64,000 nt of DNA from Halegenticoccus soli. Its GTDB lineage: Archaea; Halobacteriota; Halobacteria; Halobacteriales; Haloferacaceae. Position numbers and translations under genes: made by a program. This document shows positions 3,082-27,485 of the stretch, in pieces (position 1 is the first letter of the stretch; every line of letters begins with the position of its first letter). Location of the stretch: contig NZ_PEND01000001.1 of NCBI RefSeq assembly GCF_002844195.1, forward strand, positions 62,001-126,000, read 5' to 3'. The notes under the pieces were generated by a model. That model did not search any database and was not told the DNA's origin. It saw only the letters and a program-made list of their open reading frames with translations.

Positions 3082-3750
3082 TCAGTGTTCGTGCGGGAGG
3101 TGCAGTTCGAGGAGCGATTTCACGCCCCGACGGATCCGCTCCGACACCGCCTGCTGGCTGACGCCGATCTCCTCGCTCAGCCCGTCGACGGTGCACTTGC
3201 GAGGGATGTCGAAGTATCCGGCGCTGAAGGCCAGTTCCAACGCCTCGCGCTGTTTGTCCGTCAACAGATTCGCGCCGTCGCCCGCGGAGCCGCTCCTCTC
3301 GAAGGGGTACGCTTCCGAATAGAGCTTGTCGATGCGAACCGAGATGCCGTTTTCCTCGCAGTGGGCCAGAAACGAGGAGAGCGACGCCCGGTCCGGACTC
3401 CGGACGCGGAGCCGCCAGGTCGCCTCCCCCGGACGGCTGGTCGCCGTGAGAACCTGGATGCCGCGGTCCGCCAGGAGCTTCGAGACGAGCGGCGTGTCGG
3501 TTCTCGCCCTGACGTTGTACACCCGGACGGCGGGAAAGTCCACGATGCGCTCGAAGTCGGCGACGGACGGATCGGCGCGAAGCTCCCGCTCGAAGGCGTC
3601 GAAGTCGCAGTTTTCGACGACGAATCCCGCGCTGTCCGGCGAGGCCTGATACTGCACCGCGATCCGCGCCTCGGGGAGCTTCGGGAGCGCGTGCTGCGTC
3701 AACACCGCACCCGGTCCGGACACCTGAACCTCAGCGATGACTGATGACAT
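3082..3750 (-). CDS. Bat-type HTH_10 transcriptional regulator
   Basis: A 222-residue regulator. The N-terminal 150 residues form the two-part sensor region typical of bacterio-opsin-activator-like (Bat) proteins. The C-terminus carries the HTH_10 domain: LTDKQREALELAFSAGYFDI, then the recognition part LSEEIGVSQQAVSERIRRG. Family members regulate transcription in haloarchaea, often in response to light or redox, but the stimulus here is unknown. The ATG at 3750 is preceded by GGAGG (3765-3761, 10-nt spacing), so this transcript probably has a leader. Its HTH resembles that of the regulator at 4425-5078, which points to an old duplication. Confidence 0.88.
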   Translation of the reverse strand: MSSVIAEVQVSGPGAVLTQHALPKLPEARIAVQYQASPDSAGFVVENCDFDAFERELRADPSVADFERIVDFPAVRVYNVRARTDTPLVSKLLADRGIQVLTATSRPGEATWRLRVRSPDRASLSSFLAHCEENGISVRIDKLYSEAYPFERSGSAGDGANLLTDKQREALELAFSAGYFDIPRKCTVDGLSEEIGVSQQAVSERIRRGVKSLLELHLPHEH

Positions 3751-3760
3751 TGCCGTCTCG

Positions 3761-3803
3761 CCTCCTACCGTGATAGATAGTACCACACGGTCGGTAATAA
3801 GTA
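3761..3803 (-). promoter_or_regulatory. Promoter and ribosome binding site of the Bat-type gene
   Basis: On the minus strand a CTTATTA box (around 3797-3803) is followed by a leader containing GGAGG at 3765-3761, 10 nt before the ATG at 3750. Shine-Dalgarno motifs are uncommon among genes of this window, so the site helps fix the start. Confidence 0.5.
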
Positions 3804-4013
3804 TCGTCACGGGGAAACGTCGTCCGGACGCGAGCCGGCCCCGCCTCGTCCGACTGCAGTCGTGATCAGTCGGTGCTCGGCGCGAGAAGGTGGCGTTTGC
3901 GCGTGAGAGGACGCGTCGGCCGGTGAAGGGGACGTCGGATCGGCCGTGCGCGTTCGATCGTCGGCGACGGACGGGCGATTCAGGGGTGCCTCCGTGTCCC
4001 GTCCCGCCTCGGC

Positions 4014-4382
4014 TCAGAAACGATCGTAGATCCGAATGCGACCGTCGCTTCGGACGGCGACGGTCGCGCCTCCGTACTCGAAGGCTATCTCCCCTCTGAC
4101 GCTTCCGGGACCGTCCGACGAGGGGCCGAAGAGCGCGACTTCCAGCGCGTCGGCGTCGACGCGGTCGTACAGCGCCGAGAACCCGCTTTCGACCGGATCG
4201 ACCCCTCTCGCCGCCGCCACGGCGAAGACGACCGCGGAGCTGAGATCGAAGTCTTCCGCCGGATGATACCACGTCTCGTGGAGTACCCGCCCGCAGCCGG
4301 CGGTGCCCTCCTTTCCGCCGAACGGGGGAGCGGAACCCACGGTTTCGGTCGATTCTAACTCTTCGGCCACGTCGACACGCAC
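4014..4382 (-). CDS. HalOD1 output-domain protein
   Basis: The 122-residue product has the HalOD1 pattern: DLSSAVVFAVAAARGVDPVE, a middle LYDRVDADALEVALFG, and a terminal strand pair GEIAFEYGGATVAVRSDGRI. HalOD1 is a small haloarchaeal output domain usually found near signalling proteins; its activity is not known to me. The start is a GTG at 4382. It lies just after a Bat-type gene read in the same direction (43-bp gap) and before a second one, so the three may work in one signalling pathway. Confidence 0.8.
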   Translation of the reverse strand: MRVDVAEELESTETVGSAPPFGGKEGTAGCGRVLHETWYHPAEDFDLSSAVVFAVAAARGVDPVESGFSALYDRVDADALEVALFGPSSDGPGSVRGEIAFEYGGATVAVRSDGRIRIYDRF

Positions 4383-4423
4383 GGCGATCGACCGTGTAGT
4401 TCCGAGGGTTTAGCACTCAACCG

Positions 4424-4430
4424 TTTATAA
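4424..4430 (-). promoter_or_regulatory. TATA box for the HalOD1 gene
   Basis: TTATAAA on the minus strand overlaps the last codons of the upstream Bat-type gene and lies about 45 bp before the GTG at 4382. It implies a separate transcript with a short leader for the HalOD1 gene. Confidence 0.5.
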
Positions 4431-5078
4431 GCCGTCGGGGGCGATCGAGTTCCCGATGAGCGTCTCGTGCGCCCGACGGAGCCGGACCGACGCCGCCTGC
4501 GTCGAAACGCCGAGCTGGTTCGCCAGTTCGCCGAGGGTGATCTCGCGCGGCACGGCGAAGTACCCCTCCGCGAACGCTCTGGTGAGCACCTCCCGCTGGG
4601 GTTCCGTCAGGCCGAACGCGTCGCCGGGCAGCTCACCGCCCTCGCTGTACACCGCCCTGAGTCCGAGACCGATGCCGAGCGAGAGCACCCGGCTCCTGTA
4701 GGCGTGGAGCGCGTCGCGGTCCGGGAACCGCATCCGGAGCTCCCAGCCGTCGTGCGTCCCTCTCAGGTCGAGATTCATCGCGCCGACGTCGACGACCGCG
4801 GGGTACGCGGACGCGTCCCTGCCCGCCGCGGTGTACTCGACGCGGAAGAGCCGCCGTTCGCCCACTTCGACCAGCTCGGTCAGGTTCCGCACCGTCGGGT
4901 CCGCTTCGACCCCCGCCGCGAACGCCTCGAAGTCCGCCTCCTCCATCCAGAAAAACAGCCGTATCCCCCCCGAATCGCTCGTCTGCACGTCCTCCACGTA
5001 GGCGGTGCTCTCCGGGACCCTCGACAGCGCTTCGCGGAGAATGGGCGATTCGAGCAGGAACTCCGCGATGAGACTCAT
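4425..5078 (-). CDS. Bat-type HTH_10 transcriptional regulator
   Basis: A 217-residue paralogue of the regulator at 3082-3750. The C-terminal HTH_10 runs from LTEPQREVLTRAFAEGYFAV to LANQLGVSTQAASVRLRRA. The N-terminal sensor half is diverged and lacks cysteines or other obvious cofactor ligands. The ATG at 5078 opens the frame. Sitting head to tail with a HalOD1 gene and another HTH_10 gene, it probably belongs to the same sensory group; ligand and targets are unknown. Confidence 0.87.
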   Translation of the reverse strand: MSLIAEFLLESPILREALSRVPESTAYVEDVQTSDSGGIRLFFWMEEADFEAFAAGVEADPTVRNLTELVEVGERRLFRVEYTAAGRDASAYPAVVDVGAMNLDLRGTHDGWELRMRFPDRDALHAYRSRVLSLGIGLGLRAVYSEGGELPGDAFGLTEPQREVLTRAFAEGYFAVPREITLGELANQLGVSTQAASVRLRRAHETLIGNSIAPDGL

Positions 5079-5189
5079 CGGTTCCCTCTCGTCGCCGTTC
5101 CGCCAAATACTATTCTGTCACTCTCCGAACCGACCCGTCGGTTCGCCGGCCTCGGAGTCGGGTGGGGACCGCGGGCCCCCGACCCCGGC

Positions 5190-5672
5190 TCAGCCGAGGT
5201 TCTCCCCCTGATAGCTCCCGTCGTACGTGCCGTCGTGTCCGGCGTCGGCGAGAACGAGCTGGGCGATGCGCGCGCCCCGCTCCAGTTCGATGTCGTGGTG
5301 GACCTGCAACAGCCCTTCGCCCCTCCCCTCGTAGCCCGCGTCCCACACCGCCGTGTTGAGCATGCACGAGTTTCGCATGAGCGACGACCGCGGGTAGACG
5401 TACCCGACGTGCTCCTCGGGGATGCGGACCGTCTCGCCGTAGCGGACGACGTACCCGCCCGGCGGGAGGTAGTACGAGTCGGGGTCGTCCGCGCCGCTGT
5501 CGTCGGGCTCGATCGGCTGCCGCTCGCCGATCTCCTTGTCGTCGCGGCCGATCCGACCGGAGTTGATCTGCTCGAAGACGGCGTCGAGGGTGAGGTCCAC
5601 GCCGTTCGGCTGTACCTGCGCGTCCGCGATCGGCGTGACGTGCTCCGCGACGAACGTGCCGGGCTTGAACAT
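5190..5672 (-). CDS. dut: dUTP diphosphatase / dCTP-deaminase family protein
   Basis: A 160-residue enzyme of the trimeric dUTPase/dCTP deaminase fold that removes dUTP and so prevents uracil in DNA. It starts MFKPGTFVAEHVTPI; the core is YVYPRSSLMRNSCMLNTAVWDAGYEG, with the conserved serine and aspartate of the nucleotide pocket, and the terminal HDIELERGARIAQLVL strand. The deaminase and dUTPase branches look alike; the length and the tail favour archaeal dUTP nucleotidohydrolase. Residues upstream of 5672 in the same frame are arginine-rich and were left out. A T-run box around 5694-5702 suggests a leaderless transcript, divergent from aconitase. Confidence 0.85.
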   Translation of the reverse strand: MFKPGTFVAEHVTPIADAQVQPNGVDLTLDAVFEQINSGRIGRDDKEIGERQPIEPDDSGADDPDSYYLPPGGYVVRYGETVRIPEEHVGYVYPRSSLMRNSCMLNTAVWDAGYEGRGEGLLQVHHDIELERGARIAQLVLADAGHDGTYDGSYQGENLG

Positions 5673-5815
5673 GTCCGTGAATGCGAGACGGACCAAAAAA
5701 CGGTGACGAATCCCTCCGGGGATCGTAACTCGAATCCGCGTTACTGTTCGATCCTCCGCGAAAATTGCCGATCCGCCGGGGTTCCACACGGTTATTGGAC
5801 GGGGAACACGCGGGA

Positions 5816-5822
5816 TTTATAT
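5816..5822 (+). promoter_or_regulatory. TATA box of aconitase
   Basis: TTTATAT is centred 30 bp before the ATG at 5849, which places the transcription start at or next to the start codon. Confidence 0.65.
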
Positions 5823-5848
5823 CCGCGGAGGGACCATCCACGGACGAT

Positions 5849-7825
5849 ATGGGACAGACAATTACGGAGAAGATTCTCGACGATCACCTCGTCGAGGGGG
5901 AGCTGGAACCCGGAGAGGAGATCGGTATCGAGATCGACCAGGTGCTGATGCAGGACACCACCGGCACGATGGTGTGGCTGCAGTTCGAGGCGCTCGACCT
6001 GGACGACGTCCAGACCGAGCTCGCCGCCCAGTACTGCGACCACCAGACTTACCAGTTCGACTTTAAGAACACGGACGACCACCGCTTCCTCCGCTCCGCC
6101 GCGGGCACCTACGGCGCTCATTTCTCTCGCCCCGGCAACGGCATCTGTCACAACGTCCACAAGGAGAACTTCGCGGCGCCCGGCAAGACGCTCCTCGGAT
6201 CCGACTCGCACACGCCGACGCCCGGCGGCCTCGGCCAGCTGGCGATCGGCGCGGGCGGGCTCGACATCGCCGTCGCGATGGGCGGCGGCGCGTACTACGT
6301 CGAGATGCCCGAGATCGTCAACGTCCGCCTGGAGGGCGAACTCCCCGAGTGGGCGACGGCGAAGGACATCATCCTCGAGATGCTGCGCCGCCTCTCCGTG
6401 AAGGGCGGCGTCGGCAAGGTGTTCGAGTACACCGGTCCGGGCGCTGAATCGCTCACGGTCCCCGAGCGGACGACCATCACCAACATGGGGACCGAGCTCG
6501 GCGCGACCTCGTCCATCTTCGGCACGGACGAGAAGACCAGGGACTACCTCGAACGGCAGGGCCGCGGCGACGAGTACGTCGAACTGGCGCCGGACGAGGA
6601 CGCCGAGTACGCCGACGAGCTCGTCATCGACCTCTCGGAGCTCGAACCGCTCATCGCCCAGCCGTCGATGCCCGACAACGTCGTGCCCGTCCGCGAGGCC
6701 GCCGGCACGAGCGTCGACCAGGTCATCATCGGCTCGTGCACCAACGGCGGCTACGAGGACATCCTCCCCGCCGCGAAGATGCTCGAGGGCCGCGAGGTGG
6801 ACAAGAAGACCGAGATGATCATCGCGCCCGGGTCGAAGCAGGCGTCGGAGATTCTCGCCCGGCAGGGCTGGACCGCCGAGCTGATGGCTGCCGGGGTGAA
6901 CTTCTCCGAGGCCACCTGCGGCGCGTGCATCGGCATCGGGCACGTCCCCGCCTCCGACTCCGTCTCGCTGCGGACGTTCAACCGCAACTTCGAGGGGCGC
7001 TCCGGGATCGAGGACGACAACGTCTACCTCTGCTCGCCCGAGGTCGCCACCGCGGCCGCCATCAAGGGCGAGATCGTCGACCCGCGCGACCTGGCCGACG
7101 AACTCGGCGACCTCGAAGCGCCCGGCATCGAACTCCCCGACCAGTACGACGGCAGCAAGGCCGACCTCATCTCGCCCGACGAGGCCGTCGACGACGAACT
7201 GATCAAGGGGCCGAACATCGGCGACGTGCCGCTGAAGGAGCCGCTCGAGTCGCACCTCGCGGGACCGGCGCTCCTGAAGATGACCGACAACATCACGACG
7301 GACCACATCATCCCGGCGACGTCGGACATCCTCAAGTTCCGCTCGAACGTTCCGAAGCTCAGCGAGTTCACGCTGTCGCGCGTCGACGAGACGTTCGCCC
7401 AGCGCGCACTCGAAGCCGACGGCGGCTTCCTCGTCGCCGGGGAGAACTACGGACAGGGCTCCTCCCGCGAGCACGCCGCGCTGTGTCCGATGTACCTCGG
7501 CGTCGAGGGCGTCCTCGCGCAGAGCTTCGCCCGCATCCACAAGGCGAACCTGTTCAACTTCGGCCTCGTCCCGCTGACCATCGACGAGGACACCTACGAC
7601 CGCATCGAGCAGGGCGACGACATCGAGATCGTCGACGACGTCGGCGAGGGCGTCCGCTCCGGCCAGGAGGAGTTCACCGTCCGCGTGAACGACGACTGGG
7701 AGGCGACCGCCCGCCTCGACGCCTCCGAGCGCGAGCGCGAGATCCTCGCCGCCGGCGGCAAGCTCTCGTGGACCAAGCAGCAGCACGAGGGGAGCCGAGG
7801 CGGCGCCCAGCCCGCCGACGACTGA
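5849..7825 (+). CDS. acnA: Aconitate hydratase
   Basis: A 658-residue aconitase that converts citrate to isocitrate in the TCA cycle. The N-terminal three domains hold the cluster cysteines: Cys297 in GSCTNGG and Cys357/Cys360 in TCGACIG. Substrate-binding motifs are visible early (SDSHTPTPGG). The swivel domain carries GENYGQGSSREHAAL, whose serine-arginine pair is catalytic in the family. The length matches haloarchaeal aconitases. The ATG at 5849 is 27-30 bp after a strong TATA box, while further upstream the frame has no good start. It stands alone, divergent from the dUTPase gene. Confidence 0.97.
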   Translation: MGQTITEKILDDHLVEGELEPGEEIGIEIDQVLMQDTTGTMVWLQFEALDLDDVQTELAAQYCDHQTYQFDFKNTDDHRFLRSAAGTYGAHFSRPGNGICHNVHKENFAAPGKTLLGSDSHTPTPGGLGQLAIGAGGLDIAVAMGGGAYYVEMPEIVNVRLEGELPEWATAKDIILEMLRRLSVKGGVGKVFEYTGPGAESLTVPERTTITNMGTELGATSSIFGTDEKTRDYLERQGRGDEYVELAPDEDAEYADELVIDLSELEPLIAQPSMPDNVVPVREAAGTSVDQVIIGSCTNGGYEDILPAAKMLEGREVDKKTEMIIAPGSKQASEILARQGWTAELMAAGVNFSEATCGACIGIGHVPASDSVSLRTFNRNFEGRSGIEDDNVYLCSPEVATAAAIKGEIVDPRDLADELGDLEAPGIELPDQYDGSKADLISPDEAVDDELIKGPNIGDVPLKEPLESHLAGPALLKMTDNITTDHIIPATSDILKFRSNVPKLSEFTLSRVDETFAQRALEADGGFLVAGENYGQGSSREHAALCPMYLGVEGVLAQSFARIHKANLFNFGLVPLTIDEDTYDRIEQGDDIEIVDDVGEGVRSGQEEFTVRVNDDWEATARLDASEREREILAAGGKLSWTKQQHEGSRGGAQPADD

Positions 7826-24932: not shown

Positions 24933-26267
24933 GTGTCCCGAACGCACGTCGTCACCGCGTTCCTCCGCCACCGCGGCGAGGTGCTCCTCGTCCGCCGGAG
25001 CGACGCGGTCGGTACCTACGCCGGCATGTGGGGCGGCGTCTCCGGGTACGTCGAAGGCGACCCCGAGGGCGCGCTCGCGGACGCCCGCAGGGAGATCACG
25101 GAGGAGGTCGGCATCGCCGACGCGTCGCTGGTCCGCGCGGGCGATCCCCTGGCGGTCGACGACGGCGACCGCGAGTGGACCATCCACCCGTTCCTGTTCG
25201 CGGTCGAAACGCGCGCGGTCGAACCGAACGAGGAACTCGCGGACTGGGAGTGGACCGACCCGACGGCCGTCCTCGACCGCGAAACCGTCCCCGCGCTCTG
25301 GGAGGCGTACCGTCGCGTCGCGCCGACGGTCGAGTCCGTTCGGGAGGACGATGAGCACGGTTCGGCGTACGTCTCGGTGCGGGCGCTGGAAGTCCTGCGG
25401 GACGAGGCGGCCGCCGTCGCGGCTGGCGCGAACGCGTGCGGCGGCGGAACCGCCGACGGCGACAGCGACGGCGGCGGGAGCAACGACGGCGACAGCGATG
25501 ACGACGGACACGACACCGCCGGCTGGGAGCGCGTCGCCGCCGTCGCCCGCGACCTTCGGGACGCCCGTCCGGGGATGGCCGCGCTGGCGAACCGCGTGAA
25601 CCGCGCGATGTTCGAGGCCGGGAGAACGGCCGAGAGCGTCCGCGACGCCGCGCGGGAGGGCACCGCCGACGCGCTGGCGGCAGACGGCGAGGCGGCCGCG
25701 AACGCCGCGGACCTGCTCGCCGGCGTCGAGGGGGCCGTCGCGACGCTCTCGCGCTCCGGGACGGTGACCGACGCGCTCTCGCGGACCGACCTCCCTCTCG
25801 TCGTCGCCGAGTCGCGTCCGGGCGGCGAGGGCGTCGGCGTCGCCGAGCGGTTCGCCGCGGTGGGTCGCGACGCGACGCTGACGACGGACGCCGCGCTCGC
25901 GCACGTCGCCGCCGAACGCGACGTCGCGGCCGCGGTCGTCGGCGCGGACGCGGTCCTGCCGGACGGGAGCGTCGCGAACAAGGTCGGCACGCGGGCGCTG
26001 GCGCTCGCCGCCGCGCGGGAGGGGTTTCCGCTCTACGTCGTCGCCGCCGCGGACAAGATCAGCTCCGAGGGGGTGTTTCACCCCGAACCGCGCGATGCGG
26101 CGGAGGTGTACGACGGGGACGCGCCGGTGTCGGTCGAGAACCCGCTGTTCGACCGGACGCCCGGGGATCTGGTCGCGGGCGTCGTCACCGAGCGGGGGGT
26201 GCTGGACGGCGGCGACGTGGAGGCGCTGGCTGCGGAGCACCGGAAGCGGGCGAACTGGGACGGTTGA
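24933..26267 (+). CDS. NUDIX - eIF2B/ribose-bisphosphate isomerase-like fusion
   Basis: A 444-residue two-domain protein. Residues 1-150 are a NUDIX domain with ARREITEEVGI, but the usual Gly-x5-Glu start is altered (GYVEGDPEGA). A Gly/Asp/Ser-rich linker of about 35 residues follows. Residues about 200-444 resemble the eIF2B-alpha/MtnA/ribose-1,5-bisphosphate isomerase family, with VVGADAVLPDGSVANKVGTRALALAA and the DKISSEG tail. The NUDIX part could hydrolyse a nucleotide and the second part isomerise a sugar phosphate; that link is inferred. GTG 24933 is the start. Confidence 0.82.
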   Translation: MSRTHVVTAFLRHRGEVLLVRRSDAVGTYAGMWGGVSGYVEGDPEGALADARREITEEVGIADASLVRAGDPLAVDDGDREWTIHPFLFAVETRAVEPNEELADWEWTDPTAVLDRETVPALWEAYRRVAPTVESVREDDEHGSAYVSVRALEVLRDEAAAVAAGANACGGGTADGDSDGGGSNDGDSDDDGHDTAGWERVAAVARDLRDARPGMAALANRVNRAMFEAGRTAESVRDAAREGTADALAADGEAAANAADLLAGVEGAVATLSRSGTVTDALSRTDLPLVVAESRPGGEGVGVAERFAAVGRDATLTTDAALAHVAAERDVAAAVVGADAVLPDGSVANKVGTRALALAAAREGFPLYVVAAADKISSEGVFHPEPRDAAEVYDGDAPVSVENPLFDRTPGDLVAGVVTERGVLDGGDVEALAAEHRKRANWDG

Positions 26268-26330: not shown

Positions 26331-26337
26331 CTTTTTG
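26331..26337 (+). promoter_or_regulatory. TATA-like box for the box C/D sRNA
   Basis: CTTTTTG, flanked by A-rich sequence (GAAAACG), lies 25-30 bp before the terminal stem of the guide RNA at 26362. The spacing fits an archaeal promoter with transcription starting at the RNA's 5' end. Confidence 0.6.
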
Positions 26338-26361: not shown

Positions 26362-26425
26362 GGTGGCGATGAGGAAAGTTACCCCCTCTGAGCCCCTTGT
26401 GATGAGGGACGCAGGCCGAGCCACC
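26362..26425 (+). ncRNA. Box C/D guide sRNA, predicted 23S rRNA helix 69 2'-O-methylation guide
   Basis: All parts are in order: terminal stem GGTGGC (26362-26367) pairs with GCCACC (26420-26425); box C GCGATGA (26366-26372, one change from RUGAUGA); box D' CTGA (26388-26391); box C' GTGATGA (26399-26405, perfect); box D CCGA (26416-26419, one change from CUGA). The guide AGTTACCCCC (26377-26386) is complementary to GGGGGUAACU, which I recall as helix 69 of haloarchaeal 23S rRNA. The fifth base upstream of D' faces the G that corresponds to the methylated Gm1950 of Haloarcula. The second guide, GGGACGCAGG, has no target I can name. It sits in the 291-bp gap between the NUDIX fusion and the dehydrogenase. 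Confidence 0.85.

Positions 26426-26531: not shown

Positions 26532-27485
<954 letters not shown>

Follow-up and report, generated by a model that had tools for sequence, protein, structure and literature searches.

Does the short interval between a NUDIX and IF-2B-like gene (24933-26267, plus strand) and a D-2-hydroxyacid dehydrogenase gene (26550-27485, plus strand), both assigned by Pfam, encode a guide RNA, and if so, which nucleotide does this RNA act on? The initial annotation of the window, i.e., the whole 64,000-nt stretch of Halegenticoccus soli DNA analysed here, had proposed a box C/D sRNA at 26362-26425, with a D' guide directed at helix 69 of the 23S rRNA and a D guide that may direct another methylation.

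Anatomy and conservation of the sRNA

The whole predicted RNA occupies 26362-26425 on the plus strand (64 nt), exactly the coordinates initially proposed, and reads GGTGGC-GAT-GAGGA-AAGTTACCCCCT-CTGA-GCCCCTTG-TGATGA-GGGACGCAGG-CCGA-GCCACC. It is supported by homologues and by a covariance model match (G000:C1:88362-88425, 81.3 bits). The terminal stem is formed by GGTGGC (26362-26367) and GCCACC (26420-26425). Within it, on the same strand, are box C, ATGAGGA (26369-26375), the D' guide, AGTTACCCCC (26377-26386), box D', CTGA (26388-26391), the D'-C' spacer, GCCCCTTG (26392-26399), box C', TGATGA (26400-26405), the D-guide region, GGGACGCAGG (26406-26415), and box D, CCGA (26416-26419). Boxes C and C' were located by homologue alignment. 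All homologues share the same layout: a six-pair stem, a 3-nt bulge, box C with the family consensus RTGANGA, the D' guide, D', the spacer, C', a variable D region, box D and the stem.

Boxes C and D of this sRNA are one-base variants of RUGAUGA and CUGA, respectively, and are therefore slightly non-canonical; box D reads CTGA in some relatives. When box C is read as ATGAGGA, after a six-pair stem and a 3-nt bulge, the terminal motif becomes a regular kink-turn, and the G-C pair beside the sheared pairs is invariant across homologues. With regard to the internal C'/D' motif, comprising CTGA and TGATGA, position 2 of D' and position 4 of C' covary: the combinations C/C, T/T and T/C are observed 25, 12 and 6 times, respectively, and C/T never. 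The terminal stem is 100% paired in the 20 representative rows of the alignment, with three of its six pairs changed on both sides, whereas slid control structures pair at 24-61%. The homologue alignment and the covariation thus bear out the stem and the four boxes recognised earlier.

The core pattern is present in 377 of the 394 genomes sampled from the order Halobacteriales, and in 344 of the 347 good ones; a reversed control gave a single match. The D' guide, GTTACCCCC, does not differ among the 39 distinct full copies. These copies were gathered with a pattern loosely requiring TTACCCCC, which makes this invariance partly a result of selection, and the same guide recurs in unselected model matches. 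Both the guide and the structure are therefore conserved in evolution. The D region varies freely, with an entropy of 1.3-2.0 bits per position among the 39 homologues.

A TATA-like promoter box, TTTTT, precedes the terminal stem at 26332-26336 (plus strand; -30 to -26). T-rich sequence is conserved at these positions among 42 homologous upstream regions, as is an A at -10. This is what a haloarchaeal promoter that starts transcription close to the stem would show, and it agrees with the promoter box initially placed 25-30 bp upstream. Scans for sigma-70 promoters and intrinsic terminators are uninformative for archaea. As C/D boxes are short and degenerate, and the guide match alone is not rare, the boxes could also have come together by chance in an intergenic stretch that yields no RNA. 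This is contradicted by the near-universal conservation, the invariant guide, the compensatory stem changes and the promoter box, which make it extremely improbable.

Across the phylum, a covariance search with model R1 found matches in 116 of the 247 genomes sampled, including genomes outside the order. From their place in the phylum, the latter are probably methanogens and their relatives. In the 17 matches read outside the order, [AG]AGTTACCCC[CG] or a close variant stands beside D', and the boxes are RATGATGA, the canonical form of box C, and CTGA or CCGA. Their stems and spacers differ from the haloarchaeal ones. The spacer GCCCC[TG]TG, at 26392-26399 in the window, is almost invariant in Halobacteria and absent in homologues outside the order. 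As the guide is retained outside the order and the spacer is not, the guide appears to be old and the GCCCC spacer a haloarchaeal addition. The spacer was also considered as an extra antisense element and rejected as such: it has no common 8-nt match in rRNA, and its T/G alternation argues against a fixed pairing.

The RNA had also been described as one that annotation overlooks, and Rfam gave no match at 26362-26425. A homologous sRNA is found on the Natronorubrum bangense plasmid NZ_CP031308.1, at 139840-139900, between the hisI and aCPSF1 genes; this interval has no listed feature in the PLSDB gene table, which omits RNA genes.

The D' guide and helix 69 of 23S rRNA

In RNAs of this class, box D or D' adjoins a guide of 8-12 nt that is complementary to rRNA or tRNA. 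A search of the guide complements against the rRNA and tRNA of the organism, a check proposed at the outset, matched the D' guide to helix 69: the organism's own 23S gene (contig C15) contains the 10-nt complement GGGGGTAACT within the helix 69 context GGCGGGGGTAACTATGACCC, as had been claimed from the guide sequence. The own 23S assembly is partial, with runs of N, and the rRNA of a relative, G021, was added to the target search. The pairing of the guide at 26377-26386 with GGGGGTAACT comprises 10 Watson-Crick base pairs, begins at +2 from D', and is exact in the own 23S at GGGGGUAACU. C26383, the D'+5 nucleotide (plus strand), faces the fourth G of GGGGG, which is equivalent to position 1909 in E. 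coli and 1950 in Haloarcula. The N+5 rule thus picks, as recovered from the organism's own rRNA, the very G that the initial annotation had designated and that is reported as Gm1950 in H. marismortui (PMC2584109).

Of 200 shuffled guides, 9 (4.5%) can form at least 10 Watson-Crick pairs with some stretch of rRNA or tRNA. Taken by itself, the guide match is therefore only moderately improbable and not decisive, and it is the conservation that makes it secure. The guide can also pair over 8 bp with 16S rRNA at GGGGUAAC, which counts against helix 69 as the target.

The kind of sRNA and its target were already predicted in 2008 by Grosjean and colleagues (PMC2584109). These authors listed Gm1950 among the modifications observed in H. 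marismortui and, for the equivalent Gm1934 of Haloferax volcanii, predicted a C/D sRNA. Homologues of this guide sRNA were reported from 25 archaeal genomes, with Pyrococcus sR41 proposed as its counterpart. The window RNA is thus a further member of this group. It shares the target nucleotide and the guide concept with the H. volcanii candidate. Compared with archaeal box C/D sRNAs in general, such as the sR families of Sulfolobus and Pyrococcus, it has the same box order, terminal kink-turn motif, internal C'/D' motif and N+5 rule. In contrast to them, only the D' guide is conserved in the present family, the D guide is free, and the D'-C' spacer is conserved within Halobacteria.

Based on these observations, the most likely role of the sRNA at 26362-26425 is to direct 2'-O-methylation to the G1950 equivalent in helix 69 of 23S rRNA. 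We infer, with high confidence, an independently transcribed archaeal box C/D sRNA with a D' half that guides helix 69 methylation and a mainly structural D half. The sRNA would be transcribed on its own, from its own promoter box, and L7Ae, Nop5 and fibrillarin would assemble on the terminal C/D kink-turn and on the internal C'/D' motif. The D' guide would pair with the 5' strand of helix 69, and fibrillarin would place a methyl group on the 2'-O of the G opposite C26383. The D half probably has no fixed target.

The initial suggestion that the second guide also directs a methylation, which would then be species-specific, fits the length of the D region (9-11 nt), its correct placement, and a match of 8 Watson-Crick and 2 GU pairs between the D guide of the window and the 23S rRNA of a relative. 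Nevertheless, shuffling the D guide gives an equal or better match in 170 of 200 cases, and the best rRNA position is matched by 4/39 D guides, compared with 39/39 for D'. In rRNA and tRNA, the best target of the D guide has 8 Watson-Crick pairs, with nothing above the shuffles. Given that this region varies freely and has no target shared among homologues, the suggestion did not hold up, and a dual guide is very unlikely.

Helix 69 is an intersubunit bridge and a hotspot of 2'-O-methylation in archaea (PMC4644070). This location, together with the conservation of the GCCCC spacer in Halobacteria beyond the needs of guiding, could also indicate that the main role of the sRNA is that of a folding chaperone or a checkpoint for helix 69 while the 50S subunit is assembled, with methylation being secondary. 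Such a role is unlikely, as the D'+5 register falls exactly on the G for which 2'-O-methylation is reported in H. marismortui, and the spacer lacks a fixed 8-nt rRNA complement and is not shared by the homologues outside the order.

Register-shifted paralogues

Besides the form found in the window, a B form, with AAT[AG]GTTACCCC[AT] before D', is present in eight genomes. It pairs with helix 69 over 11-12 bp and, as its guide has one C fewer, D'+5 is predicted to move to the 1910 equivalent. B-type loci comprise L072, L073, L079, L081, L082, L154, L155 and L156, and in some genomes the B form adjoins an RNase Z-like gene. G121 was considered as a further genome with the B form and was rejected, the listed match being a partial copy of the A form.

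The genome of the window contains a second C/D sRNA (G000:C3:461457-461521, minus strand, locus L046, 58.1 bits). It reads TTTACCCCCGAA-CCGA, a register predicted to point to the 1907 equivalent over 9 bp, and it adjoins a conserved gene encoding 286 aa, which shares 72% identity with the neighbour of the B copy in G278. Two further genomes, G077 and G085, carry GT[TC]TACCCCCGCT-CCGA forms. Methylation directed by the B-type and GTTTACCCCC-type paralogues would lie at the 1910 or 1907 equivalents.

The sRNA gene as a proposed integration site in relatives

In at least five relatives (G021, G009, G298, G371 and G209), one to three copies of the 3' half of the sRNA gene lie on the 3' side of the intact gene, and each copy begins at the CCCCC of the guide. 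G121 has a partial, closely spaced sRNA copy. To the left of CCCCC, the identity is at background (5-10/40), and to the right it reaches 95/100 nt in one G371 copy. A motif near TCTAYTAAYAGA-NATCGT stands to the left of CCCCC in four of the five array genomes, G209 being different. A search for this motif over 394 genomes returned only these arrays and one chance-like match with three mismatches; the motif is also present in one Haloferacaceae MAG.

The array of G021 (L047, G021:C1:1274000-1285000, 3691-7310, minus strand) comprises three units of 1-1.5 kb located 3' of the intact sRNA gene. Each unit carries a toxin-antitoxin-like pair and, at its end, TCTATTAATAGA followed by a copy of the sRNA 3' half. 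The cargo consists of a MazE/AbrB-like and PIN pair, a MarR-like and PemK/MazF-like pair, and a MarR-nucleotidyltransferase gene followed by a small ORF that has no Pfam match. The MAG locus (L104, LKML01000061.1, 1577-2393) contains the same HTH and PemK/MazF-like cassette with the same kind of site. Its PemK-like protein is 91% identical to that of G021, which speaks for lateral movement of the cassette together with the site.

The units of G298 (L087 and L088, G298:C2:204000-241000) are larger. One, of 18.9 kb, contains matches to DndA, DndC, DndD, DndE and PbeA, and the other, of 8.7 kb, contains a calcineurin-like phosphoesterase, NurA and HerA; both are bounded by copies of the sRNA 3' half. 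Serine-recombinase-like ORFs are located 5' of the sRNA in this genome. The units of G371 (L089), G009 (L090) and G209 (L091), as read from their ORFs without a family search, include a 2553-aa surface-like protein, a transporter, UspA-like genes, and HTH and Lrp-like regulators.

None of the units of G009, G021, G298 and G371 contains a tyrosine recombinase, which suggests that the enzyme acts in trans. Att-type sites were absent from the viral contigs, phages and plasmids searched. The site of the window has no 3' copy and can therefore be regarded as an empty site. According to the mechanism that we propose, cassettes with toxin-antitoxin pairs, a Dnd-Pbe defence island, regulators or transporters would carry a copy of the sRNA 3' half, insert within the D' guide region of the sRNA gene, rebuild the gene and stack in arrays.

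The integrative elements of archaeal tRNA genes likewise duplicate the 3' half of the RNA gene at the far end of the insert and keep the gene intact (PMC8371274). In contrast to these elements, the target here is a C/D sRNA gene and no tyrosine recombinase lies inside the units. The present units are also stacked, each ending in its own site, which makes them more like integron cassettes than like tRNA-gene elements (PMC8371274). A 2021 review of archaeal tyrosine recombinases contains no mention of sRNA or non-coding RNA, and we found no open-access report in which a C/D sRNA gene serves as attachment site in archaea, which is absence of evidence. This use of an sRNA gene, as the landing site of mobile toxin-antitoxin and defence genes, is apparently undescribed so far. 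With moderate confidence, we propose that this sRNA family doubles as an attB-like site for cassettes in which no tyrosine recombinase was found, the window copy being unoccupied, and that the register-shifted paralogues extend methylation to neighbouring guanosines of helix 69.

The sRNA would explain a methylation at an intersubunit bridge helix of the haloarchaeal ribosome, and the analysis provides a model and an alignment for a near-universal RNA family missing from Rfam. Its relatives make two sets of questions testable: whether duplicated guides gain new methylation sites when the guide slips by one or two bases against the D' box, and whether toxin-antitoxin and defence cassettes of archaea insert repeatedly at an rRNA-modification gene, and by the action of which recombinase.
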